DNA of 64,000 bases from Aliiroseovarius pelagivivens (GTDB lineage Bacteria > Pseudomonadota > Alphaproteobacteria > Rhodobacterales > Rhodobacteraceae). Position 1 is the stretch's first letter. Every line of letters begins with the position of its first letter. The translations under genes were made by a program, and so were the position numbers. The stretch lies in contig NZ_OMOI01000001.1 in the NCBI RefSeq assembly GCF_900302485.1, forward strand, positions 1,860,001-1,924,000, read 5' to 3'. The notes beneath the pieces are model-generated. The model made no database searches and had not been told where the DNA came from. It saw only the letters and a program-made list of their open reading frames with translations. Below, one piece after another: positions 35,633 through 56,975 of this stretch.

Positions 35633-36865
35633 TTAGTTGGACGTGGCGTCTTGGTACCATGCCACGATGTAGTCGCGGCCTTCCTGATCCATCTCGATCG
35701 CATTGGGCGGAGGCATCGCGTGGGACGCACCCGCGTGCAGATAGACCTGCTTGGCGTGGCGCGCGACATCTGCTTCGGTTTCCAGAACCACCCCTTTGGG
35801 CGCCCAGTACATTCCATCCCACGACGGCTCTCGGGCGTGGCACATCGAGCAGTTCCCGACCACAGCAAAATATGCGTCTTCGAACCCATCGGCCGAGGCA
35901 AAGGTTTGCTCATAAGGGGTCAATGCGCGTGCCTCGGATTCTTCGTATGTTTCCCCGGCGCGCATCGTCGATAGCCATGCGATCAAAATCATTAGCAGTA
36001 CGGTCACCAACCACGTCCAATTCGGCCCTTTGCCGGTCTTGTGCATGGTGTTGAAGTAGTGACGGATGGTGACGCCGGTCAGGAAAATCAGGCCGGCAAT
36101 GATCCAGGAATACTGGGTGCCAAATGCCAATGGATAGTGGTTCGCCAGCATCAGGAACACGACCGGCAAGGTCAGATAGTTGTTATGGGTCGAGCGCACC
36201 TTGGCGATCTTGCCGTATTTCGAATCCGGCGTCCGCCCGGCCTTCAGGTCCGCCACAACGATGCGCTGGTTGGGCATGATCTGGAAGAACACGTTTGCCG
36301 TCATGATTGTTGCCGTGAACGCGCCCAGATGCAGAAGGGCTGCGCGACCGGTGAAAATCTGGTTATAGCCCCAAGACATCACAACAAGGATGACGAACAA
36401 GAGCAGCATCAGAAGCGTTGGGTTCTCGCTCAACTTCGATTTGCACATCTGATCATAGAGCAACCAACCAATGGTCAGCGATCCGCCCGAGATCAGGATA
36501 CCCTGCCACAACGTCAGATCCGCCTTGGTCGGGTCCAGAAGGAACAGCTCGCCCCCGACCCAATAGATGATCATCAGCAACGCCGCGCCCGACAGCCATG
36601 TCGTGTAGCTTTGCCATTTGTGCCATGTCAGATGCTCTGGCATTTCCGAAGGGGCCACAAGGAATTTGACCGTATGGTAGAACCCGCCGCCGTGCACTTC
36701 CCATTCCTCGCCATAGGCGCCATCGGGAAGGTTGGGATTGGGTTTCAGCATTAGATCAAGCGCGATGAAATAGAATGACGCACCAATCCACGCCATTGCC
36801 GTGATGACGTGAAGCCACCGCACAGAAAACGCGATCCAGTCCCATAAAATTGCCAGGTCATACAT
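35633..36865 (-). CDS. puuD: Membrane-bound urate hydroxylase (cytochrome c-type uricase) PuuD
   Basis: Oxidises urate to 5-hydroxyisourate at the inner membrane (410 aa). The N-terminal part has about eight membrane helices beginning WIAFSVRWLHVITAMAWIGASFYFI; the C-terminal domain is a mono-heme cytochrome c with CSMCH (about 339-343) and a likely axial Met in SHAMPPPN. Electrons therefore go to the respiratory chain and no peroxide is made, unlike soluble uricase. It is divergent from a LysR-type regulator with a 98-nt gap. It begins the purine-breakdown region. Confidence 0.92.
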   Translation of the reverse strand: MYDLAILWDWIAFSVRWLHVITAMAWIGASFYFIALDLMLKPNPNLPDGAYGEEWEVHGGGFYHTVKFLVAPSEMPEHLTWHKWQSYTTWLSGAALLMIIYWVGGELFLLDPTKADLTLWQGILISGGSLTIGWLLYDQMCKSKLSENPTLLMLLLFVILVVMSWGYNQIFTGRAALLHLGAFTATIMTANVFFQIMPNQRIVVADLKAGRTPDSKYGKIAKVRSTHNNYLTLPVVFLMLANHYPLAFGTQYSWIIAGLIFLTGVTIRHYFNTMHKTGKGPNWTWLVTVLLMILIAWLSTMRAGETYEESEARALTPYEQTFASADGFEDAYFAVVGNCSMCHAREPSWDGMYWAPKGVVLETEADVARHAKQVYLHAGASHAMPPPNAIEMDQEGRDYIVAWYQDATSN

Positions 36866-36918
36866 GGCATACCTCCCATATTCGTCTTAGCGACACACTA
36901 TGCTAACCATATTTATTC

Positions 36919-36939
36919 TGGTATTGCTGCCAAATACCA
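36919..36939. promoter_or_regulatory. Inverted repeat in puuD / lysR gap, candidate LysR-type box
   Basis: TGGTATT (36919-36925) and AATACCA (36933-36939) are perfect 7-bp arms around a 7-nt centre, in the region shared by divergent puuD and the LysR-type gene. The T-N-A dyad spacing fits a LysR-family recognition site. Confidence 0.55.
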
Positions 36940-36963
36940 AGCAGCATCAAAAAAAACAAAACA

Positions 36964-37881
36964 ATGTCCTATCTTGCCAACATCCGAACCTTCGTCCGCG
37001 TCTATGAGCTTGGCAGCATGTCGGCTGCGGGGCGCGACCTTCGGGTGTCGCCGGCGGTAACCTCCTCGCGGATCTCGCAGCTGGAAGACTATTTGGGCGT
37101 TCGGCTGTTCCAGCGCACCACGCGTAGCTTGGCCCCCACCGAACAGGGCGAAAGGTTCTATCGCGGCGCGACCGAAATCCTTGAAGCGGTAGAAAACGCA
37201 GAAGCGCAAATCGTTGATATTACAGACAATCCCCGCGGGCCGCTTTATGTCGCGGCCCCTTTGGGTGTGGGGCGACGTTTGATTGCGCCTTTGGTTCCGG
37301 ATTTTTTAGAGAAGTACCCGGAAGTCAGCGTGCGCCTTCGTCTGACCGACCGCAAAGTGGACCTGACCACCGAAGGGCTTGATTTGGCGTTTTTCCTTGG
37401 CCAACCGGAAGACAGCAATCTCAAAATTCGCAAGATTGCGGACGTCGAGCGCGTGCTCTGCGCGGCACCTGCATACATCAAACAGCGCGGCATGCCTGCA
37501 AATGGCACCGATCTTATCAACGGCGCGCATGAATGCCTAAGCCTTCGCTTCCCCGGCGCGACCGAGTTCCAGTGGCTGTTGACCACGAAGGACGGCCCAA
37601 AACGCTTTCGCGTGACGGGGCGATATGAATCCGACGATGGGGATGTGCTGACGGACTGGGCGCTGGATGGAAACGGCATCGCGATGAAGCCGGTTTTCGA
37701 GATTTCAGAGCACTTGAAATCAGGACGGCTAATTCCGGTCGCGACCGAAACGCCGCCCGAGCCGATCCAGATGGCTTGCTTGTTCACCCACCGTCGCGGG
37801 CAGGACCCCAAGTCGAGACTGTTCATGGAATTTGTGATCGACCGGATCGCCACCCGCATTCGCAGCACGGATCGGGGCTAG
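36964..37881 (+). CDS. LysR-family regulator, probable purine-degradation regulator
   Basis: Transcription factor of 305 aa. The N-terminal winged HTH is MSYLANIRTFVRVYELGSMS through VSPAVTSSRISQLEDYLGVRLFQRTTRSL. The C-terminal part is a LysR substrate-binding domain. It is clearly paralogous to the LysR-type protein at 49761 (same RTTRS-L-PTE hinge, RRLIAPLVPDF and TDRKVDL stretches). It is divergent from puuD and convergent with uraH, so it probably controls urate oxidation genes. The inducer is unknown. Confidence 0.9.
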   Translation: MSYLANIRTFVRVYELGSMSAAGRDLRVSPAVTSSRISQLEDYLGVRLFQRTTRSLAPTEQGERFYRGATEILEAVENAEAQIVDITDNPRGPLYVAAPLGVGRRLIAPLVPDFLEKYPEVSVRLRLTDRKVDLTTEGLDLAFFLGQPEDSNLKIRKIADVERVLCAAPAYIKQRGMPANGTDLINGAHECLSLRFPGATEFQWLLTTKDGPKRFRVTGRYESDDGDVLTDWALDGNGIAMKPVFEISEHLKSGRLIPVATETPPEPIQMACLFTHRRGQDPKSRLFMEFVIDRIATRIRSTDRG

Positions 37882-37883
37882 GC

Positions 37884-38237
37884 TCAGCTGCCGCGGTAAG
37901 TGGAGTAGCCGAAGGGCGATAGAAGCAGTGGCACGTGATAGTGCGATGCCTCGGACATGCCGAACCGCAGCGGGATAACGTCTAGAAACCGGGGCGCTTC
38001 GGGCGGGACACCGATGCTGTCCAGATAACCCCCTGCATAAAATACAAGCTCGTATTCCCCTGTTTCAAACTTTTCGGCGGGCAGGATCTGCTCATCGGTC
38101 CGACCATCGTCGTTGGTCACCAGCGTTTTGAGCAAGCTGCGCTGATCGCCATCAATCCGAAACAGCTCGATTTTCAATCCCTCTGCGGGACACCCGCGGG
38201 CAGTATCAAGCACGTGCGTGGTCAGGTAGCCTGTCAT
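37884..38237 (-). CDS. uraH: 5-hydroxyisourate hydrolase (transthyretin-like)
   Basis: Hydrolyses 5-hydroxyisourate to OHCU (117 aa). It keeps the N-terminal [12 protein letters not shown] with catalytic His, the arginine-containing middle, the [19 protein letters not shown] end with His, and the C-terminal YRGS signature that marks HIU hydrolase rather than transthyretin. There is no signal peptide, so it is cytoplasmic. It is convergent with the LysR gene and divergent from the puuE-uraD fusion. Confidence 0.95.
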
Positions 38238-38401
38238 CTTCGGTGTCTCCTGTGGTGAGCTTCAATTCAGCAATCCCTTCTTAATCTGGAAGCTCAGACA
38301 CACACAGGGCCAGACTGCCGAACAATCCTTCTTGATAATTTTGAAAGTGCGCCAGGATTTTCGCCTTAGAGTGATGCCTGAGATAAACAGAGGGAAACCA
38401 C

Positions 38402-39814
38402 GTGACACGATACCCACGCGACATGACCGGATACGGCACGAAGCCACCAGTCGTCAGATGGCCCGGCGACGCGAAGATCGCCGTTCAGATCGTCCTGAAC
38501 TATGAAGAGGGCGGCGAGAACTGTGTCTTGCATGGGGACGCGGCATCAGAAGCATTCCTGTCCGAGATCACCGGAGCACAGCCATGGCCGGGGCAGCGCC
38601 ATTGGAACATGGAATCCATCTATGAATACGGATCGCGCGCCGGGTTCTGGCGCGTGCATCGTCTTCTTCAGGACCTGCCTGTCACGGTCTATGGCGTGGC
38701 CACGGCTTTGGCCCGCGCGCCGGAGCAGCTTAAGGCGATGAAGGCCTCAAACTGGGAGATCGCGAGCCACGGTCTGAAATGGGTCGAACATAAGGATATG
38801 TCGGCAGACGAAGAACGGGCACAGATCCGCGAAGCGATCCGCCTGCACACCGAAGTCACTGGCACGGCCCCGCGTGGCTGGTACACCGGTCGCTGTTCAA
38901 TGAACACGATGGACTTGGCCGCCGAAGAAGGTGATTTCGCCTATATCGCAGACAGTTACGCAGATGACCTGCCCTATTGGATCCATGCCGGCGGCAAGGA
39001 TCAACTGGTAGTTCCCTACACGATGGACTGCAACGATATGCGCTTTGCGATCCAGGCAGGATACACCAATGGCGATCAGTTCGAGAGCTACCTGAAAGAC
39101 AGTTTCGACATGCTCTATGCGGAAGGGGAAGCAGGCGCGCCCAAGATCCTCTCGATCGGCTTGCATTGCCGCCTGATCGGACGTCCGGGCCGGGCAGCCG
39201 CCCTTAAGCGCGTCATCGATCACTTCAAATCACACGACGGTGTCTGGTTCGCCACCCGCGAACAAATTGCCGATCACTGGGCCAAGGAGCACCCCCCAAT
39301 GCAGGGTTTGAAACCGTCTGAAATGGACCAAGAGACGTTTATTGCAGAGTTCGGAGGCGTGTTTGAACACAGCCCGTGGATTGCCGAGGGCGCATTTGGT
39401 CTGGAGCTGGGGCCAACCCATGACACGGCCGCAGGCGTGCACAACGCCCTTGCCCGCGTGTTCCGCAGCGCCAGTGAAGAGGCCCGCCTGGGCGTGCTGG
39501 TGGCGCACCCGGATCTAGCCGGGAAACTGGCCGCCGCTGGACGGTTGACCGCAGAAAGCACATCCGAACAGGCTGGTGCCGGTCTGGACATGTTGACCGA
39601 CGACGAACGCGCCGCGTTTACCGCGCTGAACGAAAGCTACACGAACAAGCATGGCTTCCCCTTCATCATCGCGGTGAAGGACAACACCAAGCCCAGCATT
39701 CTGGAAGCGTTCAACCGCCGGATCGACAATGACCGCGATACCGAATTTGCCGAGGCTTGTCGGCAGGTCGAACGGATCGCCGAGCTTCGCCTTGAAGAGA
39801 AGTTCGCCGCATGA
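38402..39814 (+). CDS. puuE: Bifunctional allantoinase (PuuE) / OHCU decarboxylase (UraD) fusion
   Basis: Fusion protein of 470 aa. Residues 1-300 are a polysaccharide-deacetylase-like allantoinase (PuuE): VQIVLNYEEGGENCVLHGD, WEIASHGLKWVEH, GWYTGRCSMNTMDL, and ILSIGLHCRLIGRPGRAAAL. Residues about 305-470 are the OHCU decarboxylase: EFGGVFEHSPWIAEGAF, LGVLVAHPDLAGKL and KHGFPFIIAV. It makes allantoin and then opens it to allantoate, channelling being plausible. The start is GTG at 38402 with GAGGGA upstream; an ATG at 38423 is the alternative. The stop overlaps allA (ATGA). Confidence 0.93.
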   Translation: MTRYPRDMTGYGTKPPVVRWPGDAKIAVQIVLNYEEGGENCVLHGDAASEAFLSEITGAQPWPGQRHWNMESIYEYGSRAGFWRVHRLLQDLPVTVYGVATALARAPEQLKAMKASNWEIASHGLKWVEHKDMSADEERAQIREAIRLHTEVTGTAPRGWYTGRCSMNTMDLAAEEGDFAYIADSYADDLPYWIHAGGKDQLVVPYTMDCNDMRFAIQAGYTNGDQFESYLKDSFDMLYAEGEAGAPKILSIGLHCRLIGRPGRAAALKRVIDHFKSHDGVWFATREQIADHWAKEHPPMQGLKPSEMDQETFIAEFGGVFEHSPWIAEGAFGLELGPTHDTAAGVHNALARVFRSASEEARLGVLVAHPDLAGKLAAAGRLTAESTSEQAGAGLDMLTDDERAAFTALNESYTNKHGFPFIIAVKDNTKPSILEAFNRRIDNDRDTEFAEACRQVERIAELRLEEKFAA

Positions 39815-40299
39815 CTTTGTCGATCATCCCCACCACTCTGACGCCCGAGGCCTTTGCGCCCTTTGGCGACGTGCTCGACACTGCGGGCGCGCCTGACAAG
39901 ATGATCAATCAGGGGCTTTGCGGGCGGTATCATGATCGCGCGACGCTTGATTTCTCCGACGGGCACGCTGGGATCAGCATCTTTGACGCCGAAGCACGCA
40001 GCCTGCCGATGGTGCTGGACATGGTGGAACGCCACCCGGACGGCAGCCAAGCGTACATACCGATCAGCCGCGACCCCTACCTTGTCGTCGTCGCTCCGGA
40101 TAACGGCGACAGGCCGGGAACGCCCGTGGCCTTCATCGCCGCCCCCGGACAGGGCGTGAATTACCATCGCAACACATGGCACGGTGTCTGTGCACCCCTG
40201 ACAGAACAGGGACAGTTTGCGGTGATCGACAGGATCGGCACGGGGCCGAACCTACAAGAACACTGGTTCAAGGAGGAAATCAGAATCGAGAAGCCATAA
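39811..40299 (+). CDS. allA: Ureidoglycolate lyase
   Basis: Cupin-like enzyme of 162 aa that splits ureidoglycolate into glyoxylate and urea. Landmarks are LTPEAFAPFGDVLDTAG, MVERHPDGSQAYIPISRDPYLVVVAP, and GQGVNYHRNTWHGVCAPL with the conserved His residues. Its ATG overlaps the puuE-uraD stop. It produces the glyoxylate that the bhc genes 10 kb away can assimilate. Confidence 0.93.
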   Translation: MTLSIIPTTLTPEAFAPFGDVLDTAGAPDKMINQGLCGRYHDRATLDFSDGHAGISIFDAEARSLPMVLDMVERHPDGSQAYIPISRDPYLVVVAPDNGDRPGTPVAFIAAPGQGVNYHRNTWHGVCAPLTEQGQFAVIDRIGTGPNLQEHWFKEEIRIEKP

Positions 40300-40347: not shown

Positions 40348-41772
40348 ATGGCTAACACATCCATCGGGACGCCAGAGCAGCTGCGCGATCCCAATTACAC
40401 ACCACCACTTTCCAAGGCTGTGCCCTTGGGTATCCAGCACGTGCTGGCAATGTTCGTATCAAACGTCACCCCGGCGATCATCATCTGCGGGGCAGCCGGG
40501 TTCGGGTTCGGCTCGAACAGCCCGGACTTTCCACAGATGATCTATATGATCCAGATGTCGATGTTCTTTGCTGGCGTCGCGACCCTGATCCAAACCATCG
40601 GTCTGGGCCCGGCCGGTGCCCGCCTGCCGATCGTGCAGGGGACATCCTTTGCATTCATCCCAATCATGATCCCGCTGGTTGCGGGCAAAGGGGTTGATGC
40701 GATGGCCGTGCTGATGGGCGGGGTCATTGTGGGCGGATTGTTCCACACGATCCTAGGCCTATTCATCGGCAGGATAAGGTTCGCCCTACCACCTCTTGTG
40801 ACGGGCCTCGTGGTGACCATGATCGGTCTTGCACTGGTTAAGGTCGGCATCCAATACGCCGCTGGCGGCGTACCTGCGATTGGCAAGCCCGAGTATGGCT
40901 CGCTGATTAACTGGACGATGGCGTTGATCGTGATCTTTGTCACGCTTGGCCTTAAGTTCTATGCCCGTGGCATGCTGTCGGTATCCGCGGTCCTGATCGG
41001 CCTGATCGTGGGCTATATCTTTGCCTTCGTCATCGGCGAGGTGAACCTGGGCAACGTAGGTCGCGCAGCACCCTTCGCGCTTCCGAACCCGCTTCACTTC
41101 GGCGTCGAGTTCTCGGTCGCGGCAATCATCGGGTTCTGTCTGATGTCGTTCGTATCCGCGGTGGAAACCGTTGGTGACGTATCGGGGATCACAAAAGGTG
41201 GTGCAGGACGTGAAGCGACTGATAAGGAAATTGAAGGCGCAACCTATGCCGACGGTATCGGTACTGCCATCTCTGGCCTGTTCGGCGCCCTGCCCAACAC
41301 ATCGTTCAGCCAAAACGTGGGTCTGATTGCCATGACCGGCGTGATGAGCCGCCACGTGGTGACCATCGGTGCGATCTTCTTGATCCTTGCCGGGCTTATC
41401 CCCAAGATTGGGGCGATCATCTCGTCGATCCCGATCGAAGTCCTGGGCGGCGGTGTGATCGTGATGTTCGGCATGGTGGCCTCGGCTGGTATTTCGATGC
41501 TGTCGGATGTCGACTGGAACCGTCGCAACATGGTGATCTTTGCCATCTCGCTGTCGCTGGGGCTTGGCCTTCAGCTGGAGCCGGGCGCGCTGCAGCATCT
41601 GCCGTCCACGATCAAGGTTCTGGCAACATCGGGCATTCTGCCTGCTGCTGCGATCGCGATTGTGCTGAACCTAATTCTTCCCGAGGAACTGTCGGACGAA
41701 GCAACCGAGGAAGTCTCGGGTGGGATGGCCGGTCACGGTAAGGGATCCCTACAGAAAGACGACCACGTCTAA
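40348..41772 (+). CDS. NCS2-family purine/xanthine/urate permease
   Basis: Nucleobase:cation symporter-2 family permease, 474 aa, about 12-14 membrane helices. The family signature is seen in PLGIQHVLAMFVSNVTPAIII and GNTSF-like LPNTSFSQNVGLIAMTGVMSR with the conserved Q region. AGGGAGG precedes the start. It follows allA by 48 nt on the same strand. Urate or xanthine uptake is the likely role by context. A strong terminator lies 24 nt past its stop. Confidence 0.9.
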   Translation: MANTSIGTPEQLRDPNYTPPLSKAVPLGIQHVLAMFVSNVTPAIIICGAAGFGFGSNSPDFPQMIYMIQMSMFFAGVATLIQTIGLGPAGARLPIVQGTSFAFIPIMIPLVAGKGVDAMAVLMGGVIVGGLFHTILGLFIGRIRFALPPLVTGLVVTMIGLALVKVGIQYAAGGVPAIGKPEYGSLINWTMALIVIFVTLGLKFYARGMLSVSAVLIGLIVGYIFAFVIGEVNLGNVGRAAPFALPNPLHFGVEFSVAAIIGFCLMSFVSAVETVGDVSGITKGGAGREATDKEIEGATYADGIGTAISGLFGALPNTSFSQNVGLIAMTGVMSRHVVTIGAIFLILAGLIPKIGAIISSIPIEVLGGGVIVMFGMVASAGISMLSDVDWNRRNMVIFAISLSLGLGLQLEPGALQHLPSTIKVLATSGILPAAAIAIVLNLILPEELSDEATEEVSGGMAGHGKGSLQKDDHV

Positions 41773-41844: not shown

Positions 41845-43197
41845 TTACGCCGCAACCGGTTCTGTCACATCCTCAAGGCCTGCGCTGCAACGCCCGGTCT
41901 TGGCAGCCTCGCCCGCCACATAGGTTTGCTCAACGGCGCGGTCATCCCCGAGTATCTGCAGAATGAACAGCTCTTCGGACAGGGTCTCGGCGCGTTGCAT
42001 TCGAAGGTCCATCGCATGCGTGGATCTGGCGTTCAGAACGACGATGTCGGCATCCGACCCCTCGGTTAAGGACCCAATCTTGTCAGACAGACCCAGCACG
42101 TCCGCATTGCCACGCGTGATCCAATCGAACGCGGCAAGCGGGTGCAGTTTCTGGTTCTGAAGCTGCAGGATCTTGTAGCCGTCATTCAGGGTCTGCAGCA
42201 TCGAATAGCTGGTCCCTGCCCCGACATCGGTCGCAATTCCGTTCTGAATGCCCCGCGCGCTGAGGCCCGCATCGTCAAACAGCCCGCTGCCCAAGAACAA
42301 GTTTGAGGTCGGGCAGAAGATGGGCTTGGAACGTGTGTCGGCAAGAACTTCAATCTCGCGCGGTGTCAGGTGAATGGCATGACCCAACAGGGTCTTTTGC
42401 CCCAGCAATCCATAGCGCTCATAGACGCCCAGATAGTCGGGGGCGTCAGGATACAGCTCGGCCGTAAAGGCGATCTCGTCATGGTTTTCGCTCAGGTGCG
42501 TTTGGACAAAGCAATCGGGATGTTCTGCGACCAATGCCCCTGCCATATCCAACTGTTCGGGTGTCGAGGTGATCGCAAATCGTGGCGTGATCGCATACTG
42601 CGCGCGCCCCACCCCGTGCCATTTCTCGATCAGCGCCTTGCTATCATCATAGCCGGCCTGCGGCGTGTCCCGCAGCCCATCGGGCGCGTTGCGATCCATC
42701 ATGACCTTGCCGCTGATCATGCACATATTGCGCTTTGCGGCTTCAGTGAAAAGCGCCTCGACGGATCCTGAATGGACCGAGCCAAAAGCGACTGCCGTAG
42801 TGGTACCGTGGCCGGTCAGAAGGTCACAGAAATGCGTGGCCATTGCGGCTGCGTGAGCCTCTTCTGCAAAGCGTGTCTCTTCAGGGAATGTATAGGTGTT
42901 CAGCCAGTCCAGAAGCTGCGCGCCCCACGAGGCAATCACCTGCACCTGAGGGAAATGGACATGCATATCGATGAACCCGGGCATCAACAGATGTGGGCGG
43001 TGATCGATCACCGTCGCGTCTGGAGCACGGGCTGAAAGCTGATCATAGGGGCCGGTTGCTTCAATCTTGCCATTCGCAATCAGGATCGCGCCATCGGCCT
43101 GATAGTTGTACGCCTCGGTGTCGTTCTCATCCAAAGGCTTCCTGTTGAAGTCGAGCGTCCGCCCCCGCAGGAGCGTCCGCGGCTGTGAGTTTGTCAT
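41845..43197 (-). CDS. guaD: Guanine deaminase
   Basis: Amidohydrolase of 450 aa converting guanine to xanthine. The metal-binding HxH is MPGFIDMHVHFPQVQ, followed by the guanine-deaminase hallmark WLNTYTFPEE; QTHLSENHDEI carries the next His and Glu, and GIATDVGAGTSYSML holds the metal Asp. It is the last gene of the minus-strand xdhA-xdhB-xdhC-permease-guaD operon, after an 87-nt gap that contains a stem-loop. Confidence 0.94.
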   Translation of the reverse strand: MTNSQPRTLLRGRTLDFNRKPLDENDTEAYNYQADGAILIANGKIEATGPYDQLSARAPDATVIDHRPHLLMPGFIDMHVHFPQVQVIASWGAQLLDWLNTYTFPEETRFAEEAHAAAMATHFCDLLTGHGTTTAVAFGSVHSGSVEALFTEAAKRNMCMISGKVMMDRNAPDGLRDTPQAGYDDSKALIEKWHGVGRAQYAITPRFAITSTPEQLDMAGALVAEHPDCFVQTHLSENHDEIAFTAELYPDAPDYLGVYERYGLLGQKTLLGHAIHLTPREIEVLADTRSKPIFCPTSNLFLGSGLFDDAGLSARGIQNGIATDVGAGTSYSMLQTLNDGYKILQLQNQKLHPLAAFDWITRGNADVLGLSDKIGSLTEGSDADIVVLNARSTHAMDLRMQRAETLSEELFILQILGDDRAVEQTYVAGEAAKTGRCSAGLEDVTEPVAA

Positions 43198-44868: not shown

Positions 44869-44936
44869 GGGGACCTCCTTCAATCAAACCGAGTTCACGC
44901 CGGATCCTCCACGATCCATAGCCAACCCGTGTTGTT

Positions 44937-45788
44937 TCACTGCGCCGCGATATGCGAGACAGCGCCCCAGTCAGGGGATTTTGCGGCAGTTTCAGAGGTC
45001 AATGCCGTGATCACTTCGGCCACCACGACGGCGGCGATCACGGCGGGCCGCTTGTCGCGGCTACCGCCTACCCCAATGGGGCAGATCAAGGGTGCGACGG
45101 ACAGACCGTCACAATGCTTTCGGGCCCAGCTTGCGAGTTTTGCCCGCTTTGTGGCTGAACCAATCATTCCAACATAGGCAGCGTCACCGCGTTCAAGCGC
45201 GGCTGAGGCCAGCAAAAAGTCCAACCCGTGGTCATGGGTCAGCACGATGAAGGCACTGCCTTGTGGTGCATTCATCACGTCAATTTCGGGGACCACGCTC
45301 AGCCGTTTTTCCACAGTGGCGTGCGACAGGGCCAGCTCGTCTTCGCGCTGATCTACCAGAACGCAGTGGACCGGAAGGTACTGAAGAAGATCCGCCAGTG
45401 CGCGACCGACATGCCCAGCGCCCAGAACATAGACCGCTGGCTGCTGGGCCTCTTCCAACTGCACGGTTTCCATGGCGATGTCTTTGTCTGTCGCGCTCAT
45501 ACGCGAGACACTGATTTCGACACGCCCGCCACAGCATTGGCCGATCTCTGGCCCAAGCGGGACATCCAGATGTTGCGACAGATCGCCATTCGCCAGCAAA
45601 GACCGCGCGGCCTCGATCGCCAGATACTCTAGCTGACCACCGCCGATTGTGCCCCACAATCCATCAGTTTTCACATACATTTCGGTCCCGGCCATGCGGG
45701 GGGAGGAACCACGCACTTTGGTCAGCCGCACACTCGCGACTGGGCCGGGACCGTTGAGGAACTGAAGAAGGGATTGGGCGGAATACAT
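44937..45788 (-). CDS. xdhC: Xanthine dehydrogenase accessory protein XdhC
   Basis: Molybdenum-cofactor handling protein of 283 aa that inserts sulfurated cofactor into XdhB. The N-terminal XdhC/CoxI domain has RLTKVRGSSPRMAGTEMYV and GGGQLEYLAIEAARSLL with the conserved cysteine in EIGQCCGGRVEI; the C-terminal XdhC Rossmann domain has VYVLGAGHVGRALADLL and ends with the family motif CPIGVGGSRDKRPAVIAAVVVAE. It begins 4 nt after the xdhB stop. Confidence 0.94.
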   Translation of the reverse strand: MYSAQSLLQFLNGPGPVASVRLTKVRGSSPRMAGTEMYVKTDGLWGTIGGGQLEYLAIEAARSLLANGDLSQHLDVPLGPEIGQCCGGRVEISVSRMSATDKDIAMETVQLEEAQQPAVYVLGAGHVGRALADLLQYLPVHCVLVDQREDELALSHATVEKRLSVVPEIDVMNAPQGSAFIVLTHDHGLDFLLASAALERGDAAYVGMIGSATKRAKLASWARKHCDGLSVAPLICPIGVGGSRDKRPAVIAAVVVAEVITALTSETAAKSPDWGAVSHIAAQ

Positions 45789-45792
45789 CGGA

Positions 45793-48117: not shown

Positions 48118-48128
48118 CACATCGCCCC

Positions 48129-49592: not shown

Positions 49593-49686
49593 AAGGCCTC
49601 CCAAAACCTATCCCGCGCGTGCGGGTATAAAGGTGATGTTACGGCGAGTGACTGCTTGGAAAAACGATGGCTTTTGGGAAATACTT

Positions 49687-49760: not shown

Positions 49761-50681
49761 ATGGCCTATATGGAAAGCTTGCGAGTCTTTTGCCGCGTGG
49801 TCGAGCTTGGCAGCATCACGTCTGGCGGACGCGACCTGCGTCTAACGCCTGCTGTGGCAAGCAAACGGATCAAGGAACTTGAGAAGCATCTGGGGGTTCG
49901 GCTGTTCAATCGTACGACTCGGTCGCTGACCCCCACAGAGGTGGGACAGCAGTTCTACACTGAGGCGTTGCGCATTCTGGAAACGGTGGACGAGGCCGAA
50001 AGCATCGTTGCGCGCTTCTCGGACGCGCCACGCGGCACGGTTCGGGTGACGGCCCCGATGGCCGCCGGGCGGCGGATCATTGCCCCCTTGGTGCCCGAGT
50101 TTGTGGACCAGAACCCGAACATCGACGTGCGGATGCGGATGTCTGACCGCAAGGTCGACATTCTTGCAGACGGACTGGACGTGGCCTTCTTTGTCGGAAC
50201 CCCGCATGACAGCAGCCTGAAACTGCGCAAGATTGCCGATTGCGAACGTGTGCTTTGCGCGGCCCCTGAATACCTCGCACAGGCCGGCACACCCGAGCAC
50301 CCTGACGACCTGCTTCAAGGCCATAACTGCCTCTTGCTGCGGTATCCCCGGTCACCCGAATACTATTGGACGCTCAACACCGAGGCCGGGTATCGCAAGT
50401 TCGAGGTGTCTGGAAAATACGACGCGGATGACAGCGATGTTCTGTTGAACTGGGCGCTGGACGCGCGCGGGATCGTCAACAAACCGCTCTTTGAGGTGGC
50501 GGAACATCTTCAATTGGGACGGTTGGTGGAAATCCTGCCCGATGCCCGGCCTATGCCGTCGATGTTCGGATGCCTTTACCCTCACAAGAAACTGCAGGAC
50601 CCAAAGATCCGCCTTTTGGTGGACTTCGTTGCGCGCCGTGGGTTGGAGACGCTCAAGGCAAGCAGCACTCTGACAACGTAA
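49761..50681 (+). CDS. LysR-family regulator divergent from xdhA
   Basis: Transcription factor of 306 aa. The winged HTH includes VVELGSITSGGRDLRLTPAVASKRIKELEKHLGVRLFNRTTRSLTP; the remainder is a LysR ligand-binding domain. It is paralogous to the regulator at 36964, suggesting duplication and use at the two ends of the purine pathway. AAGGAAG is upstream of the start. It ends 51 nt before the convergent bhcD stop. Confidence 0.9.
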   Translation: MAYMESLRVFCRVVELGSITSGGRDLRLTPAVASKRIKELEKHLGVRLFNRTTRSLTPTEVGQQFYTEALRILETVDEAESIVARFSDAPRGTVRVTAPMAAGRRIIAPLVPEFVDQNPNIDVRMRMSDRKVDILADGLDVAFFVGTPHDSSLKLRKIADCERVLCAAPEYLAQAGTPEHPDDLLQGHNCLLLRYPRSPEYYWTLNTEAGYRKFEVSGKYDADDSDVLLNWALDARGIVNKPLFEVAEHLQLGRLVEILPDARPMPSMFGCLYPHKKLQDPKIRLLVDFVARRGLETLKASSTLTT

Positions 50682-50732: not shown

Positions 50733-51698
50733 TCAGAAATCGACTTCGATGGCGATGCCTTTCTCGATCGCAAGATCCACGACCGACGCAGCCACGGCAA
50801 GGTCCTGAAGCCCGACGCCGGTTCCGTCAAAGAGCGTGATCTGATCGTCAGATGTCCGCCCTTGATGAGTGCCGTTGATCACCGCGCCGATCTGCGCCAC
50901 GTCACTTTCCTGGATCAGCCCTTGCCCTACAGCGTGCTGCGCTTCGCCGATGGTGATGGACTGCGCAACTTCGTCGGTGAAAACATCCGCCTTGACCAGA
51001 AGCTGAGGATCGACCTCTTGCTTGCCTTTGGTGTCGGTGCCCATGCAGGCGACATGCGTGCCGGGGCTGACTTGGCCTGCACCAAGGATCGCGTCGAATG
51101 ACGAGGTGATCGAGATGATCATGTCTGCCTCGGTCATGCCATCCAGTTCGACTGCCTCAAAGGGCAGTCCAGCTTCGGCGGCAACCTTCGCAAGGTTGGG
51201 CAGCATCTCGGGATGCAGGTTCCAGCCAATCACCTTCTCAAATGATCGCTGCTCAAGTGCGGCGCGAAGCTGGAACGTCGCCTGATGGCCCGCACCAATC
51301 ATGCCGATCACCTTCGCATCCTCACGTGCAAGATGCTTGATCGACACGGACGACGCAGCGGCGGTACGCAGGGCAGTCAACAGGTTCCCCCCCACCATCG
51401 CCTTGGCCTTGCCGGTGTCCGGGTCAAACAGGAATACGGTTGACTGGTGATTGATGATCCCGCGCTTTTCCAGATTGTTGGGCCAATAGCCCCCAGCCTT
51501 CAGCCCCAAGGTCAGCCCGGCCTGATCAAACCCACCTTTGAAGCCATAAAGCGCATCTTCGTGGCCGATCGCCTCGCGGATCACCGGGAAATTATAGGCA
51601 TCCCCTGACGCCATCGCCGCAAATACTTGTTCCACCGCGCTGAAGGCGGCCTCGCGGGTCATGAGGCCCGCAATCTCCCGTTCAGGAACGATATACAT
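50733..51698 (-). CDS. bhcD: Iminosuccinate reductase BhcD (ornithine cyclodeaminase family)
   Basis: Last enzyme of the beta-hydroxyaspartate cycle (321 aa), reducing iminosuccinate to L-aspartate with NADH. It belongs to the ornithine cyclodeaminase/mu-crystallin fold, with GLTLGLKAGGYWPNNLEKRG and the Rossmann loop GMIGAGHQATFQLRAAL. By annotation pipelines alone it could be called ornithine cyclodeaminase; the order bhcA-bhcB-bhcC-bhcD decides. AAAGGA precedes the start, directly after a terminator-like hairpin in the 94-nt gap from bhcC. Confidence 0.9.
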   Translation of the reverse strand: MYIVPEREIAGLMTREAAFSAVEQVFAAMASGDAYNFPVIREAIGHEDALYGFKGGFDQAGLTLGLKAGGYWPNNLEKRGIINHQSTVFLFDPDTGKAKAMVGGNLLTALRTAAASSVSIKHLAREDAKVIGMIGAGHQATFQLRAALEQRSFEKVIGWNLHPEMLPNLAKVAAEAGLPFEAVELDGMTEADMIISITSSFDAILGAGQVSPGTHVACMGTDTKGKQEVDPQLLVKADVFTDEVAQSITIGEAQHAVGQGLIQESDVAQIGAVINGTHQGRTSDDQITLFDGTGVGLQDLAVAASVVDLAIEKGIAIEVDF

Positions 51699-51792: not shown

Positions 51793-52956
51793 TTAAAACG
51801 CTTTGCCGCGGGCCGAGACCGGCCAGAGGGTTTCCACTTTGCCGTTCCGCACCCCGACATACCAATCATGCACGTTGGCGGTCGGATCACAGTGGCCCGG
51901 TACAAGGCGCAGCTTGTCATTGACCTTCAAGGCACCGTCCGGATCAGAGACCACGCCATGTTCGTCCGAGCATTTGATGTATTCGACATCATCACGCCCA
52001 AAGACCACGGGCAGACCGCTGTCGATTGACTGCGCCTTCAGGCCCGCGTCAACGATGGCCTTGTCGGCCTTGGTATGGCTCATCACCGAGGTCAGGATGA
52101 AAAACGCATTCTCCCATTCGCCTTGGTCGATCCGCTTGCCGTCCTTGTCGAGGATACGGCCATAGTCGGCATCCATGAACGCATAAGACCCGCACTGCAG
52201 CTCGTTATACACGCCCGAGTTCGACTCGAAGTAATAGGATCCGGTGCCCCCGCCCGAGACAAGCTCGCACGCGATACCTTCGGCTTTTAATCCGTCAACG
52301 GCGGCCTTCACCATGCCGATGGCGACATCCAGCTTTTCCTTGCGCGCCTCATAGGTGTCAAGGTGCTGCATCGCGCCCTGATAGGCCTGGATGCCCGAGA
52401 ATTTCAGGTTGTCAGCGGCATTGATTGCCTTGGCGATCTCGATCACATCCGCGGTCGAATTCACCCCGCAGCGCCCTGCCCCGCAGTCGATCTCGATGAA
52501 GGTTTCCAGCTCGGTGCCGTGTTTCTGCGCGGCCGCCGACAGGTCGGCCACGTTGGCCAAATCATCGACACAGACGATGATCCGGCTGCCCAGTTTCGGC
52601 AGCTGCGCCAGACGGTCGATTTTCAGCGGGTCACGCACTTGGTTCGACACCAGCACGTCTTTGATCCCGCCACGCACGAACACCTCGGCCTCGGACACTT
52701 TCTGGCAGCAGACGCCGACCGCGCCGCCTAGATCTTCCTGCAGCTTCGCCACATCCACGGACTTGTGCATTTTCCCATGCACCCGGTGACGCATCCCATG
52801 CGCCTTGGCATAGTCGCCCATCTTCTTGATATTGCGCTCTAGCGCGTCCAGATCCAGCACAAGCGCTGGGGTCTGGATGTCTGCCTCGTCCATGCCCGGC
52901 AGGGCCGGAACGTCAAAGCCAACGACGAGGTTTTCAAAATTGGTCACAGCGTTCAT
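51793..52956 (-). CDS. bhcC: beta-hydroxyaspartate aldolase BhcC
   Basis: PLP- and metal-dependent aldolase of 387 aa that joins glycine and glyoxylate into 3-hydroxyaspartate. It has the D-threonine-aldolase/alanine-racemase fold: PLP Lys in HRVHGKMHKSVDV, GIQAYQGAMQHLD, SGGGTGSYYFESNSGVYNE, and the C-terminal metal site CSDEHGVV with GHCDPTANVHDWYVG. The N-terminal VPALPGMDEADIQTPALVLDLDALERN matches the BhcC type as I know it from Paracoccus. Twelve nt separate it from bhcB. Confidence 0.93.
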   Translation of the reverse strand: MNAVTNFENLVVGFDVPALPGMDEADIQTPALVLDLDALERNIKKMGDYAKAHGMRHRVHGKMHKSVDVAKLQEDLGGAVGVCCQKVSEAEVFVRGGIKDVLVSNQVRDPLKIDRLAQLPKLGSRIIVCVDDLANVADLSAAAQKHGTELETFIEIDCGAGRCGVNSTADVIEIAKAINAADNLKFSGIQAYQGAMQHLDTYEARKEKLDVAIGMVKAAVDGLKAEGIACELVSGGGTGSYYFESNSGVYNELQCGSYAFMDADYGRILDKDGKRIDQGEWENAFFILTSVMSHTKADKAIVDAGLKAQSIDSGLPVVFGRDDVEYIKCSDEHGVVSDPDGALKVNDKLRLVPGHCDPTANVHDWYVGVRNGKVETLWPVSARGKAF

Positions 52957-52968: not shown

Positions 52969-53934
52969 TCACAGGGTCCACGGCAGGCGGTCGAGATCGA
53001 CATTGCCGCCGGTAATGATGAGGCCCACGCGCTTGCCCTTAAACGCGTCGGGATTTTTCAGGATGGTAGCAAGCGGCACCGCGCTCGAGGGTTCCATGAC
53101 CACCCGCAGGTGCTTCCAGATCAGTTTCATCGCGTCGATGATTTCGGGATCCGAGGCGGTGTAGATCTCGCTTACGTGGTTCGACACAAAGTGCCAGGTC
53201 AGATCCTTCAGCGGCACCAGCAGCCCATCCGCGATGGTCTTGGGCGCGTCATCTGCAATGATGTACCCTGCCTTGAAGCTGCGGTAGGCGTCGTCGGCCT
53301 GCTCGGGCTCGGCTGCGATCACTTGCGTATCCGGGGCAAGCGTCGACAGCGTCAGACAGGTGCCCGAGATCATGCCTCCCCCCCCGATCGGCGCGACAAC
53401 GGCGTCCAGACCATCGGTTTGTTCGATGAACTCGCGTGCACAGGTCCCCTGCCCGGCGATCACGCGATGATCGTTATAGGGGTGCACGAAATCACCGCCG
53501 GTTTCAGCTTGCACACGGGCAAAGGTTTCTTCCCGCGAAGACGTGGACGGTTCGCATTCCGTGATCTTGCCCCCGTATCGACGCACCGTGTCTTTCTTGG
53601 CCTGCGGCGCGGTGCGCGGCATGACCACGTTGCAGGGAATGCCCCGCTTCATGGCCGCATATGACAGGCACGAGGCATGGTTGCCCGACGAATGGGTGGC
53701 CACGCCCTTGGCCGCCTGTTCCTCGTCCAGCCCGAACACCGCGTTCGAGGCACCGCGTACCTTGAAAGCCCCCGGCTCTTGAAAGTTCTCACATTTGAAA
53801 AACAGCTCGGCCCCGGTCAGCTCGTTCAGGTAATCCGACGTCCGAACCGGTGTGCGGCGGATGTAAGGCTGGATGCGCGCATGCGCCTCCAGCATGTCTT
53901 CAAAGGTGGGGATATACATCGGCGTATCCTTCAT
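52969..53934 (-). CDS. bhcB: beta-hydroxyaspartate dehydratase BhcB (threonine dehydratase fold)
   Basis: PLP lyase (321 aa) that removes water from 3-hydroxyaspartate to give iminosuccinate. Landmarks: FKCENFQEPGAFKVRGASNA with the PLP Lys, ATHSSGNHASCLSYAA, PIGGGGMISG phosphate loop, and TGGNVDLDRLPW near the end. The ATG at 53934 overlaps the bhcA stop (ATGA) with AAGAGG upstream. The ATG at 53919 (MYIPTFEDM), with AAGGAT upstream, is a good alternative and begins where the conserved sequence begins. Confidence 0.92.
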   Translation of the reverse strand: MKDTPMYIPTFEDMLEAHARIQPYIRRTPVRTSDYLNELTGAELFFKCENFQEPGAFKVRGASNAVFGLDEEQAAKGVATHSSGNHASCLSYAAMKRGIPCNVVMPRTAPQAKKDTVRRYGGKITECEPSTSSREETFARVQAETGGDFVHPYNDHRVIAGQGTCAREFIEQTDGLDAVVAPIGGGGMISGTCLTLSTLAPDTQVIAAEPEQADDAYRSFKAGYIIADDAPKTIADGLLVPLKDLTWHFVSNHVSEIYTASDPEIIDAMKLIWKHLRVVMEPSSAVPLATILKNPDAFKGKRVGLIITGGNVDLDRLPWTL

Positions 53935-55124
53935 TCCGCAGCCTCTTGCTGGGTCATGGCGGCGCTTCCGCGATAGTATTCCTGCGCCGTCGCAACTCCG
54001 AGGCCCAGCGTGATGTCTAGGCCAAGATCGACCATGCACATCTCAGCCGTCGCGATGCCCGACAGGGCCATGACGTCGGTCATGCTGCCCAGGTGTCCAA
54101 TACGGAACACCTTGCCCGCGACCTCGCCCAACCCAACACCAAAGGCGACGCCGTATTTTTCGGCCGCAAGGGTCACGATGTCGGTGGCGTTGAAATGCGC
54201 AGGCGTGCGGATTGCACTGACCGTGTCGGAATAGACATCCGGGGACGCGGCACAGAGCTCTAGCCCCCACGCCCCCACGGCGGCGCGTACACCTTCCGCA
54301 ATGCGGTTGTGGCGGACAAAGACCTTCTCTAGCCCCTCATCCAGCAGCATTTTGCAGGGCTCGTTCAGGCCATTCATCAACCCAACAGCGGGTGTGTAGG
54401 GATAGGCGTTGTTGGCATAGCCCTTCGCCATGTCGTGCACATCGAAGAACGTGCGCGGCAGCGTGCCTATCTTGGTCGCCTCCATCGCCTTGGGGCTGAA
54501 GCCAACGATGGCCAGACCGGCGGGCAGCATGAACCCTTTCTGAGACCCGGTCACAGCAACATCAACGCCCCATTCGTCAAAGCGGAAATCCATCGACGCG
54601 ATCGAGCTTACGCCATCGACGAACAAAAGCGCGGGGTGACCGGCCGCATCCAGCGCACGGCGCACCGCGGCGATGTCCGATTTAACGCCGGTGGCGGTTT
54701 CGTTGTGCGTGGCCAAGACCGCCTTGATCTCGTGACCTTTGTCCGCGGTCAGGATCTCTTCATAGCGATCTGCGGGAATGCCTTCGCCCCACGGGGTTTC
54801 CACGATGGTGACACCCAAGCCGTGGCGCTGGCACATGTCGATCCAACGATGCGAGAACATGCCGTTGCGCGCGGCAAGGATTTTGTCGCCGGCAGACAGG
54901 GTGTTGGTCAGGGCTGTTTCCCAGCCGCCCGTGCCGCTCGATGGGAAGATGAAGACTTCGGCGGTGTTGCTCTTCAGGATCTTCTTCACGCCCTCGCGGG
55001 CCGGATGCAGGATCTGGCCGAAAAGCGGCGAGCGATGGTCAATCGTCGGCATATCAGATGCCTTGCGCAGACTTTCAGGGATGTTGGTCGGGCCCGGAAT
55101 GAAAACGGGATTCTGAAAACTCAT
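53931..55124 (-). CDS. bhcA: Aspartate--glyoxylate aminotransferase BhcA
   Basis: Class V aminotransferase of 397 aa; transfers the amino group of aspartate to glyoxylate, giving oxaloacetate and glycine. Landmarks are NPVFIPGPTNIPESLRKAS, PSSGTGGWETALTN, DGVSSIASMDFRFDEWGVD and the PLP Lys in VTGSQKGFMLPAGL. GAAGGAGAA fixes the start at 55124. It shares its family with serine-glyoxylate and (S)-ureidoglycine-glyoxylate transaminases (PucG), so a side activity on ureidoglycine is conceivable given the purine genes nearby. It is the first gene of bhcABCD. Confidence 0.92.
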   Translation of the reverse strand: MSFQNPVFIPGPTNIPESLRKASDMPTIDHRSPLFGQILHPAREGVKKILKSNTAEVFIFPSSGTGGWETALTNTLSAGDKILAARNGMFSHRWIDMCQRHGLGVTIVETPWGEGIPADRYEEILTADKGHEIKAVLATHNETATGVKSDIAAVRRALDAAGHPALLFVDGVSSIASMDFRFDEWGVDVAVTGSQKGFMLPAGLAIVGFSPKAMEATKIGTLPRTFFDVHDMAKGYANNAYPYTPAVGLMNGLNEPCKMLLDEGLEKVFVRHNRIAEGVRAAVGAWGLELCAASPDVYSDTVSAIRTPAHFNATDIVTLAAEKYGVAFGVGLGEVAGKVFRIGHLGSMTDVMALSGIATAEMCMVDLGLDITLGLGVATAQEYYRGSAAMTQQEAAE

Positions 55125-55192
55125 TGGGTTCTCCTTCGTCATTGAAGCCACCTTATCCGGCCCAAAATCCGAGGGATATTTTTTTGAATTAC

Positions 55193-55278
55193 TTTTTCAT
55201 ATTCACGCCATACACATTATTTCGTTATTTTTCAATCTATTGACTTTTTCATATTGTGAATTTATTTTTCACTGAAAA
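55193..55278. promoter_or_regulatory. Repeat-rich bhcA / bhcR operator region
   Basis: TTTTTCA occurs four times on the plus strand (55193, 55228, 55245, 55265). Two copies are part of a 13-bp direct repeat ACTTTTTCATATT (55191-55203 and 55243-55255), 52 bp apart, and the last is half of the palindrome TTTTCA-C-TGAAAA (55266-55278). Very AT-rich against the genome. It probably binds BhcR, the IclR-type regulator known to control bhc genes. Confidence 0.65.
55240..55268 (+). promoter_or_regulatory. Sigma-70-type promoter of bhcR
   Basis: TTGACT (55240-55245), 17 bp, TATTTT (55263-55268). It lies 24 nt before the preferred bhcR start and overlaps two TTTTTCA motifs, which suggests autoregulation. 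Confidence 0.55.
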
Positions 55279-55291
55279 TGCGAGAGTTTTT

Positions 55292-56137
55292 ATGGAATTT
55301 CAAAAAGACGGCACATCCCCCACCCGCAAGGCCCGGGGGCGCCCCCGCGACTGGCACGACAAGACCGCTCAGAACACGATCAAATCGCTTGATCGCGCGA
55401 TGGAGGTTTTCGAACACCTAAGCGAAGCGCAGGGTAAGCCCTTGTCCGTGATCGCCGAGGAGATGGGGCAATCGCCAGCAACCGTTTATAGGGTCCTGGT
55501 GACGCTTGAAACGCGTGGGCTGGTTGAGTTCGATAACGTCGAGCAAGTCTGGTTTATCGGCGCACGTGCTTTCGTCATCGGTGCACGTTTCCTGCGGCGC
55601 ACCAGCCTTGTCGACCGGGCCCGTCCAATTCTACGCAAACTGATGGAAGCCACCGGCGAGACTGCGAACCTTGGCATCGAGAAAGAAGGGGAAGTGCTGT
55701 TCCTGAGTCAGGTCGAGACACATGCCAACATCCGTGCCTTCTTCCCCCCCGGCTCGTTGTCACCGATGCATTCTTCTGGAATTGGCAAGGCCGTGTTGGC
55801 GTATATGGACGACGACCGGCTAAACCGGGTTCTCGAAACTTCGGCATTCGAAGCCTTCACCGAGCACACGATCACGACAGCGGAAGACCTTCGGGACGAT
55901 CTGAAGCACATACGCGCCCGGGGGTTTTCAATCGACAATGAAGAGAAGAACGCCGGGATGCGGTGCATCGCGGCGCCAGTGTTTGACATGAATGGCGAGG
56001 TCGCCGCCGGGATTTCGGTATCCGGCCCCATTAGCCGCGTTGGACATGACGAGACAGATCGGCTAAGCCGGGCAGTCATTGACGCGTCACGACACCTCAC
56101 CCAAGCCATCGGCGGGATCGCCCCCCGGCCGTCCTGA
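55292..56137 (+). CDS. bhcR: IclR-family regulator BhcR
   Basis: Regulator of 281 aa divergent from bhcA. The N-terminal winged HTH includes NTIKSLDRAMEVFEHLSEAQ and EMGQSPATVYRVLVTLETRGLVE; the C-terminal IclR effector domain includes GKAVLAYMDDDRLNRVLE, GFSIDNEEKNAGMRCIAAPVFD and GEVAAGISVSGP. The start MEFQKDGTSPTRKARGRPR at 55292 is preferred over a GTG at 55256, since that GTG lies inside the promoter and repeats. In Paracoccus the homologous BhcR activates bhcABCD and responds to glyoxylate. Confidence 0.9.
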   Translation: MEFQKDGTSPTRKARGRPRDWHDKTAQNTIKSLDRAMEVFEHLSEAQGKPLSVIAEEMGQSPATVYRVLVTLETRGLVEFDNVEQVWFIGARAFVIGARFLRRTSLVDRARPILRKLMEATGETANLGIEKEGEVLFLSQVETHANIRAFFPPGSLSPMHSSGIGKAVLAYMDDDRLNRVLETSAFEAFTEHTITTAEDLRDDLKHIRARGFSIDNEEKNAGMRCIAAPVFDMNGEVAAGISVSGPISRVGHDETDRLSRAVIDASRHLTQAIGGIAPRPS

Positions 56138-56141
56138 CGCC

Positions 56142-56975
56142 TTAACGGCCGCCACCAAGCCGCAACGGCATGTGGCGGTTCACATCCTTGTACAGAAGGT
56201 ACCGGAAACGTCCCGGTCCACCTGCGTAACAGGCCTGCGGACAGAACGCCCGCAGCCACATGAAATCACCGGCCTCGACCTCGACCCAATCCTGATTCAA
56301 GCGATAGGCTGCCTTGCCTTCCAACACGTATAGTCCGTGCTCCATGACATGGGTTTCTAGGAACGGGATGATTCCGCCCGGCTCAAAGGTCACGACCGTC
56401 ACATGCATATCGTGCCGAAGGTCAGCAGGATCCACAAACCGCGTCGTGGCCCATTTGCCATCCGTGTCAGGCATCGGCGTGGGTGCGATGTCGTTTTCGT
56501 TCAGGATCAGAACATCCGGTGCATCCAATCCCTCGACCCGCTGATAGGCCTTGCGGATCCAATGGAACCGAAGCACTTCGTCGCTGTTGTTGTGCAACGT
56601 CCAGTTTTCAGAGGGCGGCAGATACGCATAACCGCCGGGCGTCAGCTCATGGATGCTGCCTGCAACTTCCAACGTCGCCGTGCCCTCGACCACGAACAAC
56701 ACGGCTTGCGCCTCGGGATCGTCCTCGGGTCGATCGGACCCACCACCCGGCTGAACCTCCATAATGTACTGCGAGAATGTCTCGGCAAATCCACTCAGCG
56801 GGCGGGACAAAACCCAAAGCCGTGTTCCGGTCCAGAAAGGCAAGAAGCTGGTCACAATATCCTGCATAACCCCCTTCGGGATCACGGCATACGCATCCGT
56901 AAATACGGCCCGGTCGGTCAAAAGCTGGGTCTGGGCGGGAAGTCCCCCGTGCGGCGCATAATATTGTGTGCTCAT
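56142..56975 (-). CDS. allE: (S)-ureidoglycine aminohydrolase
   Basis: Bicupin enzyme of 277 aa (YlbA/AllE family) converting ureidoglycine to ureidoglycolate with release of ammonia. It begins YYAPHGGLPAQTQLLTDRA, has the first cupin at EVQPGGGSDRPEDDPEAQAVLFVVEG and the second at GGIIPFLETHVMEHGLYVLEGKAAYRL, where His and Glu ligate Mn, and the MWLRAFCPQACYAGG end. It is convergent with bhcR with a 4-nt gap. It supplies the step just before AllA. Confidence 0.93.
   Translation of the reverse strand: MSTQYYAPHGGLPAQTQLLTDRAVFTDAYAVIPKGVMQDIVTSFLPFWTGTRLWVLSRPLSGFAETFSQYIMEVQPGGGSDRPEDDPEAQAVLFVVEGTATLEVAGSIHELTPGGYAYLPPSENWTLHNNSDEVLRFHWIRKAYQRVEGLDAPDVLILNENDIAPTPMPDTDGKWATTRFVDPADLRHDMHVTVVTFEPGGIIPFLETHVMEHGLYVLEGKAAYRLNQDWVEVEAGDFMWLRAFCPQACYAGGPGRFRYLLYKDVNRHMPLRLGGGR

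Follow-up and report, generated by a model that had tools for sequence, protein, structure and literature searches.

The β-hydroxyaspartate cycle, encoded by bhcABCD and the regulator gene bhcR, was published for glycolate in Paracoccus denitrificans, and has so far been presented as a marine route for algal glycolate. According to PMC11323563, which also describes deletions of bhcABCD and of bhcR in P. denitrificans, BhcR responds to glyoxylate and forms a sister group to an IclR/AllR clade, and one sentence there already names purines and allantoin as glyoxylate sources next to the cycle. The 64,000-nucleotide stretch of Aliiroseovarius pelagivivens analyzed here (the window; contig NZ_OMOI01000001.1, positions 1,860,001 to 1,924,000) carried the bhc genes in one locus with genes for purine breakdown. 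This locus is read as a purine-to-oxaloacetate module, in which the bhc enzymes would assimilate purine-derived glyoxylate, at a probability of about 0.72, and the linkage suggests that the cycle serves growth on the carbon of purines as well as on glycolate. What the enzymes do, the flux through the route, which regulator acts on the purine operator and how the living cell uses the carbon are all inferred from the sequence.

The gene set of the cycle was complete in the window, all four enzymes exceeding the cut-offs of their NCBIfam equivalog models (scores hereafter in bits, followed by the cut-off) and the regulator being encoded divergently. It comprised bhcD for iminosuccinate reductase (50733-51698, - strand; NF045643, 587 vs. 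500; nearest solved chain 6RQA), bhcC for 3-hydroxy-D-aspartate aldolase (51793-52956, -; NF045642, 763 vs. 690; nearest solved chain 6QKB), bhcB for β-hydroxyaspartate dehydratase (52969-54039, -; NF045641, 582 vs. 550; the match starts at residue 43, the open reading frame being longer than the gene), bhcA for aspartate-glyoxylate aminotransferase (53931-55151, -; NF045640, 739 vs. 650) and bhcR for an IclR-type regulator (55256-56137, +; NF045644, 395 vs. 350). The set leading from xanthine to allantoate (Xdh, PuuD, UraH, UraD and allantoinase) was also complete. It consisted of xdhC for the accessory protein (44937-45788, -; over the TIGR02964 cut-off), xdhB for the molybdopterin subunit (45793-48120, -; over the TIGR02965 cut-off), xdhA for the small subunit (48129-49604, -; over the TIGR02963 cut-off), puuD for the membrane part of urate hydroxylase (35633-36865, -; PF06181, 431 bits, with a CxxCH motif in the C-terminal part), uraH for hydroxyisourate hydrolase (37884-38237, -; TIGR02962, 123 vs. 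87) and a puuE-uraD fusion for allantoinase and OHCU decarboxylase (38402-39814, +; TIGR03212, 502 vs. 425; TIGR03164, 204.5 vs. 96). Guanine deaminase was encoded by guaD (41845-43197, -; TIGR02967, 553 vs. 375), and the ureidoglycolate lyase that would release glyoxylate and urea by allA (39811-40299, +), just under the cut-off of NF002952 (257 vs. 260) and over that of NF009932 (162.6 vs. 160). The allE gene (56142-56975, -; NF040771, 510 vs. 350; nearest solved chain 1SQ4) is predicted to take allantoate to ureidoglycolate. A preliminary description of this DNA had listed these same genes, and each was found in its place, above curated cut-offs, allA narrowly. The description had also put allE directly against bhcR; the two genes do lie 4 bp apart (bhcR ends at 56137 and allE at 56142), but tail to tail, so that no common promoter is possible and their closeness implies no shared one.

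The pairing of bhc and purine genes was conserved across Rhodobacterales. Among 196 evenly drawn genomes of this order searched with NF045640, BhcA was found over the cut-off in 110, including that of the window (3.33 Mb, its BhcC sharing 98% identity with the one from Aliiroseovarius sp. S1123). Linkage was scored on 111 bhcA loci taken from 110 genomes other than that of the window (110 loci passed the cut-off, and the remaining one was a partial match at 635 bits; genome G002 contributed two loci) as the presence of allE, allA, puuE-uraD, uraH or puuD in about 20 kb around bhcA, i.e., about 10 kb on each side, with identity limits set gene by gene. At least one such gene was found in 57 of the 111 loci, against about one expected, and at least two of the five in 49. 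The expectation was drawn from random positions (a 40-kb target in 4 Mb, about 1 in 107) and is a rough one that takes no account of descent. Accepting cut genes in a tblastn recount again gave 57 linked loci, 51 of them with two or more purine genes, and counting by genome gave 56 of 110. These counts are lower bounds, since contig ends cut some stretches and links beyond 10 kb were missed, as with the puuD of the window, 17 kb from bhcA. In a second sample, picked by similarity and not evenly drawn, linkage was seen in 45 of the 80 named loci whose BhcC came closest to that of the window. Gene order varied among loci with the pairing retained; absence of conservation, the outcome that would have spoken against the link drawn in the preliminary description, did not occur. 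A GAPDH-like gene (the cluster of L112:14260-15267, of which one member was scanned) lay near bhc in 12 of the 57 purine-linked loci, in 3 of the 35 unlinked loci with a BhcA at least 64% identical to that of the window and in none of the 19 others; it could serve gluconeogenesis.

A further 25 BhcA-like aminotransferases from this order, matching at 525-617 bits and so under the NF045640 cut-off, were dropped from all counts, and matches of about 455 bits were also left outside. The former class (L199-L223) was considered as second bhc clusters and rejected, none of its members lying beside bhcB, bhcC or bhcD (the contig of L199 ends after the gene).

Linkage was nearly restricted to one lineage of BhcA. 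In a quick tree of 112 BhcA rows, the split into two lineages was a starred branch, and linked rows made up 57 of 92 in the lineage of the window (the window counted) and 1 of 20 in the other. The linked label changed 26 times on this tree, vs. 37.4 in shuffles, with at least 11 changes forced by starred branches; shuffles as low as observed numbered 0 of 500 for the linked rows and 1 of 500 for the rest. So many changes indicate that the pairing was gained or lost many times. They also fit a hitch-hiking explanation, in which gene sets traveling on plasmids or islands are found together without functional selection, as do the BhcC-like proteins on 118 plasmid records (83 at 80-90% identity) and the plasmid-borne set of Leisingera. 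We consider hitch-hiking very improbable: PuuD was near universal (185 of 196 genomes), which argues that the purine set itself is not accessory, gene order differed between loci while the pairing stayed, and a distant case was built from divergent, partly non-homologous enzymes. The latter came from Motiliproteus, a gammaproteobacterium, one of the bearers of the pairing outside Rhodobacterales together with Stappia and metagenome-assembled genomes (MAGs) of Roseibium and Nitratireductor. Its locus held uraD, a true allantoicase gene, allA, puuD, a Tsx-type channel and a RutR-like regulator, followed by bhcABCD, and its allA, puuE-uraD piece and puuD were only 42 to 49% identical to those of the window. 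This low identity and the different allantoate enzyme point to repeated selection rather than to one inherited block.

The whole set was found in one run on a 108.7-kb plasmid of Leisingera aquaemixtae. There, modABC, allE, bhcR, bhcABCD, an AmiS/UreI channel, a nucleobase permease, allA, puuE, uraH and lysR were followed by puuD, a small hypothetical gene, lysR, xdhABC, the counterpart of a family-less membrane protein of the window, and guaD. The run would form a self-contained module, since genes for molybdate uptake (modABC) accompany an enzyme that needs molybdenum and a channel of the urea type accompanies a pathway that produces urea. Another plasmid, the 31.9-kb NZ_CP010680 of Phaeobacter gallaeciensis, typed as conjugative (L229), carried bhcB and bhcC with no bhcA or bhcD among its listed genes, along with two RidA genes, an FAD oxidoreductase, a TRAP transporter and a mercury resistance set. 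It looks like a cassette in its own right, acting on hydroxyaspartate or some related amino acid.

The route had been described beforehand as near-complete, and the window held no dedicated allantoate gene (allC or alc). The allantoicase family PF03561 had no match in the genome of the window, in a search that left control genomes silent and detected 4 of the 196 genomes. The single strong match of this genome to the hydantoinase/carbamoylase model lay among preT-like, preA and dihydropyrimidinase genes; it scored 686 vs. 452 on a subfamily model named allantoate amidohydrolase, and 210 vs. 598 on the AllC equivalog TIGR03176. Considered as the missing step, this AllC-like protein is, from its neighbors, more likely a pyrimidine enzyme, though the model name points the other way. 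The AllE of the window exceeded the cut-off of NF040771, a model named bifunctional allantoicase/(S)-ureidoglycine aminohydrolase; the literature listings searched yielded no experiment behind this name. PuuD was encoded in 185 of the 196 genomes, AllE (NF040771) in 186 and Alc in 4. Among the 185 genomes with PuuD, 181 had AllE without Alc and 4 had Alc without AllE, none having both or neither; of the remaining genomes, five had AllE without PuuD and six lacked all three. As three of the four Alc genomes belong to one genus, this pattern amounts to about two independent replacements. Given the model name and this replacement across genomes, AllE probably performs the allantoate step and fills the apparent gap, so that the route is probably complete; the replacement would likewise close the gap that makes many such genomes seem incomplete for purine breakdown. 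The genome of the window held one more allE of this type, on another contig (G000:C2:224840-225640).

Purine genes also adjoined bhc in the genus where the cycle was defined. The BhcD of genome G282 was identical over 319 residues to PDB 6RQA, which we take to be the P. denitrificans protein, and G282 is presumably a Paracoccus, as its likeness to named Paracoccus loci indicates. On one strand, this genome carried bhcABCD, then after 41 bp a xanthine permease gene, an 8-oxoguanine deaminase gene (698 vs. 532 bits) and, 16 bp further, uraH. The strongest terminator-like hairpin came after uraH and was followed by puuD on the same strand; the terminator scan, with 8 sites vs. 5.2 ± 2.6 expected and two weaker ones inside pbuX, is suggestive only. 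A BhcD match was obtained in 63 of 101 genomes of this genus, and in the loci inspected besides G282 (L088, L092 and L101) bhcD, a pbuX-like gene, uraH and puuD were co-directional as well. The same four genes ran in one direction in six of seven named Paracoccus loci, that of P. homiensis (L017) having no uraH match there. G282 and the named loci thus place purine genes directly downstream of the bhc operon in this genus, neighbors of which no mention was found in the available portions of PMC11323563 and PMC12214560. A bolder proposal, which we hold tentatively and would not call probable, is that the BhcA lineage linked to purine genes acts, and may have acted from its beginning, as the arm by which purine catabolism assimilates carbon, glycolate being its second substrate. 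The BhcR promoter of Paracoccus would then yield a single transcript covering bhcABCD and the genes for xanthine uptake, purine deamination and UraH, so that glyoxylate from either source would turn on purine use in the organism where the cycle was defined.

Outside Paracoccus, the two gene sets appeared to have operators of their own. Two motifs were derived de novo, one from the regions upstream of 71 allE genes and the other from 56 uraH-puuE regions, those of the window included; the percentages below derive from many related, hence not independent, sequences, and each motif was also scored on its own training set. The two motifs agreed with each other (6.62, whereas permuted columns gave 2.64 ± 0.41 and at most 3.81). 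With a threshold of 8 bits, the allE motif was found in 75% of the allE, 64% of the uraH-puuE, 42% of the 57 puuD and 35% of the 26 xdhA regions, vs. about 1% in shuffles, and in none of the regions before pbuX or guaD. The uraH-puuE motif was found in 54% of the allE regions, but only in 2% of the puuD and 4% of the xdhA regions, so that it was the allE motif that extended this operator to puuD and xdhA. In the window, one candidate purine operator lay between uraH and puuE-uraD (38317-38353, -), the best site of the uraH-puuE motif at 25.2 bits, and another upstream of allE (57052-57082, -), its second-best site, at 57046. The allE motif placed its own best site at 57052 (27.2 bits, in its training set), then an unrelated site at 26611 (13.3) and, third, a site at 38323 (12.7). 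Trained without the window, the palindrome still ranked 38327 first and 57056 second in the 64 kb.

The bhc promoter carried a different motif (31 columns, 8 bits), found in 95% of 102 bhcR-bhcA regions. Its candidate BhcR box in the window, upstream of bhcA (55174-55204, -), scored 32.7 bits, vs. -2.5 for the next best site in the 64 kb, the region having been in the training set. An operator shared by bhc and purine genes was suggested by the palindromic bhcR-bhcA motif, which at 10 bits occurred in 16% of 38 uraH and 14% of 42 puuE regions (at most 0.2% in shuffles; none of 40 allE regions), but was rejected when the de novo motifs gave two different operators. Some likeness was nevertheless seen between them: the uraH-puuE and bhcR-bhcA motifs matched at 5.7 vs. 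3.73 ± 0.6 (maximum 5.43, 100 permutations), the uraH palindrome at 8 bits occurred upstream of bhcR or bhcA in 27-29% of regions (5-7% in shuffles) and the allE motif in 19% of bhcR-bhcA regions (3.5% in shuffles). We read this likeness as a shared half-site, and one regulator could still act on both operator types.

A purine operator on the bhcR side was also considered, as 13 of 102 regions matched at 8 bits or more left of the box vs. 1.7% in shuffles, and was rejected: seven of the 13 matches fell on the bhcR start codon, those of L091, L093, L094 and L107 shared one place and strand, and those of L101 and L112 lay elsewhere. The motif of the bhcR side did not match the allE motif (3.12 vs. 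2.92 ± 0.47). In G282, the bhcR-bhcA box reached 21.0 bits, with a 10.0-bit site just before bhcR. Toward bhcR, the bhcR-bhcA intergenic regions of 101 loci held another conserved palindrome, TTTTTCATAT.gTGAAAt, with a layout unlike that of the bhcA-side box; this agrees with the proposal in print that BhcR has two sites.

Taken as one pathway, PbuX would import purines, GuaD, Xdh, PuuD, UraH and PuuE-UraD would convert guanine and xanthine through urate to allantoate, and AllE, acting as an allantoicase-type enzyme, and AllA would release glyoxylate and urea. BhcABCD would then join two glyoxylates into oxaloacetate with no carbon lost. By stoichiometry, two purines yield one oxaloacetate. 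Outside Paracoccus, purine genes and bhc are most likely controlled apart and in series, as judged from their motifs, a purine signal being followed by a glyoxylate signal: a regulator of the purine side, perhaps LysR1 or LysR2, may act on the operator before uraH/puuE and allE, and the resulting glyoxylate would turn on bhc via BhcR.

That purine-derived glyoxylate feeds the bhc cycle, as the preliminary description proposed, is partly supported, by the conserved linkage, the probably complete route and the co-directional run in Paracoccus. Several observations weigh against it. The purine genes could be explained by a supply of nitrogen only, and 54 of the 111 bhc loci had no purine gene within about 10 kb. 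The near absence of linkage from the second BhcA lineage counts likewise, as do four of the 111 bhc genomes, which lacked PuuD. One of four gammaproteobacterial loci was linked, that of Motiliproteus, whereas the three Marinobacterium loci showed no linkage, except that one of them had at its edge a weak match to puuD, some 12 kb away from bhcA. In Ruegeria pomeroyi DSS-3, whose bhc genes lie on the megaplasmid, neither annotation nor tblastn gave a purine gene within 20 kb, yet its BhcA is 86% identical to that of the window. The BhcR-type box was found in none of the 71 allE, 57 puuD and 26 xdhA regions, and in 4% of the 56 uraH-puuE regions vs. 0.7% in shuffles. Moreover, glcD-like genes were detected in three genomes at 1e-40, the best at 433 to 454 bits and under the cut-off of 568, with 9 of 14 control genomes also matching; the genome of the window and G282 were about equal (453 and 449 bits), and the gene in the former leaves glycolate a likely substrate.

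These separate operators, unlinked loci and glycolate-oxidase-like genes, along with the reactivity of glyoxylate, would also be expected if purines were used for nitrogen and bhc mainly removed toxic glyoxylate, with glycolate as the main carbon substrate, purines not being a significant one and the two gene sets sharing a metabolite. We regard this as unlikely, as bhc performs net assimilation and is dearer than a simple reduction or transamination, the co-directional run in Paracoccus includes a xanthine permease, and no alternative through glyoxylate carboligase was detected at the threshold used. The carboligase (TIGR01504) was found in none of the 196 genomes at E 1e-200, the E. coli positive control being recovered, so that, although PMC11323563 names two routes for net use of glyoxylate, bhc was the sole one found in this sample. 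The assimilation of purine glyoxylate by bhc thus stays the preferred reading.

Several genes of the locus had been missed by the preliminary description: pbuX for the xanthine permease (40348-41772, +; TIGR03173, 436 vs. 414), two LysR regulator genes, lysR1 (36964-37881, +), divergent from puuD, and lysR2 (49761-50681, +), divergent from xdhA, and a gene for a family-less membrane protein (43285-44883, -). Both regulators matched LysR NCBIfam models, with none of the 25 listed over its own cut-off in either case. The full gene order was puuD(-), lysR1(+), uraH(-), puuE-uraD/allA/pbuX(+), guaD/membrane protein/xdhCBA(-), lysR2(+), bhcDCBA(-), bhcR(+) and allE(-). The membrane protein (532 residues, polytopic) had no usable match in Pfam, NCBIfam or PDB and none in a search of viral contigs; homologues were found in 20 of the 196 Rhodobacterales genomes, its own counted, and it adjoins guaD or xdhC in several relatives. 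Lying beside guaD and xdhC, it is a candidate for a new family of purine transporters. A tRNA gene (57301-57373, -) lay just upstream of allE and could mark an island boundary.

Except for this membrane protein, every enzyme in the locus is from a known family. The conserved linkage and its confinement, nearly complete, to a single BhcA lineage, the run in Paracoccus and the AllE/Alc replacement were not found in the accessible part of the open-licence literature. If the proposed route operates, purine glyoxylate would be a second input to the cycle in about half of the cycle-bearing Rhodobacterales, and dissolved marine purines would feed gluconeogenesis with the glyoxylate carbon kept.

Ruegeria pomeroyi DSS-3 reportedly uses xanthine as carbon and nitrogen source by an Xdh-initiated route to glyoxylate, as Cunliffe is said to have described in 2016; unlike the window, this strain has bhc without purine neighbors within 20 kb. 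Purine carbon harvesting by SAR11 likewise names glyoxylate as the carbon product of purine breakdown in PMC11698098, from whose main text the word hydroxyaspartate is absent. The all-gcl regulon of Escherichia coli also couples ureide breakdown to glyoxylate assimilation, via the IclR-type glyoxylate sensor AllR (PMC11323563). E. coli uses the glycerate pathway, in which CO2 is lost, whereas the route proposed here would use bhc, and BhcR-type boxes are nearly absent before the ureide genes examined here. With the cycle of P. denitrificans, the window shares the same five genes, the same divergent bhcR-bhcA layout and the same type of box; that cycle was published for glycolate, whereas in the window and in G282 purine genes are its direct neighbors.

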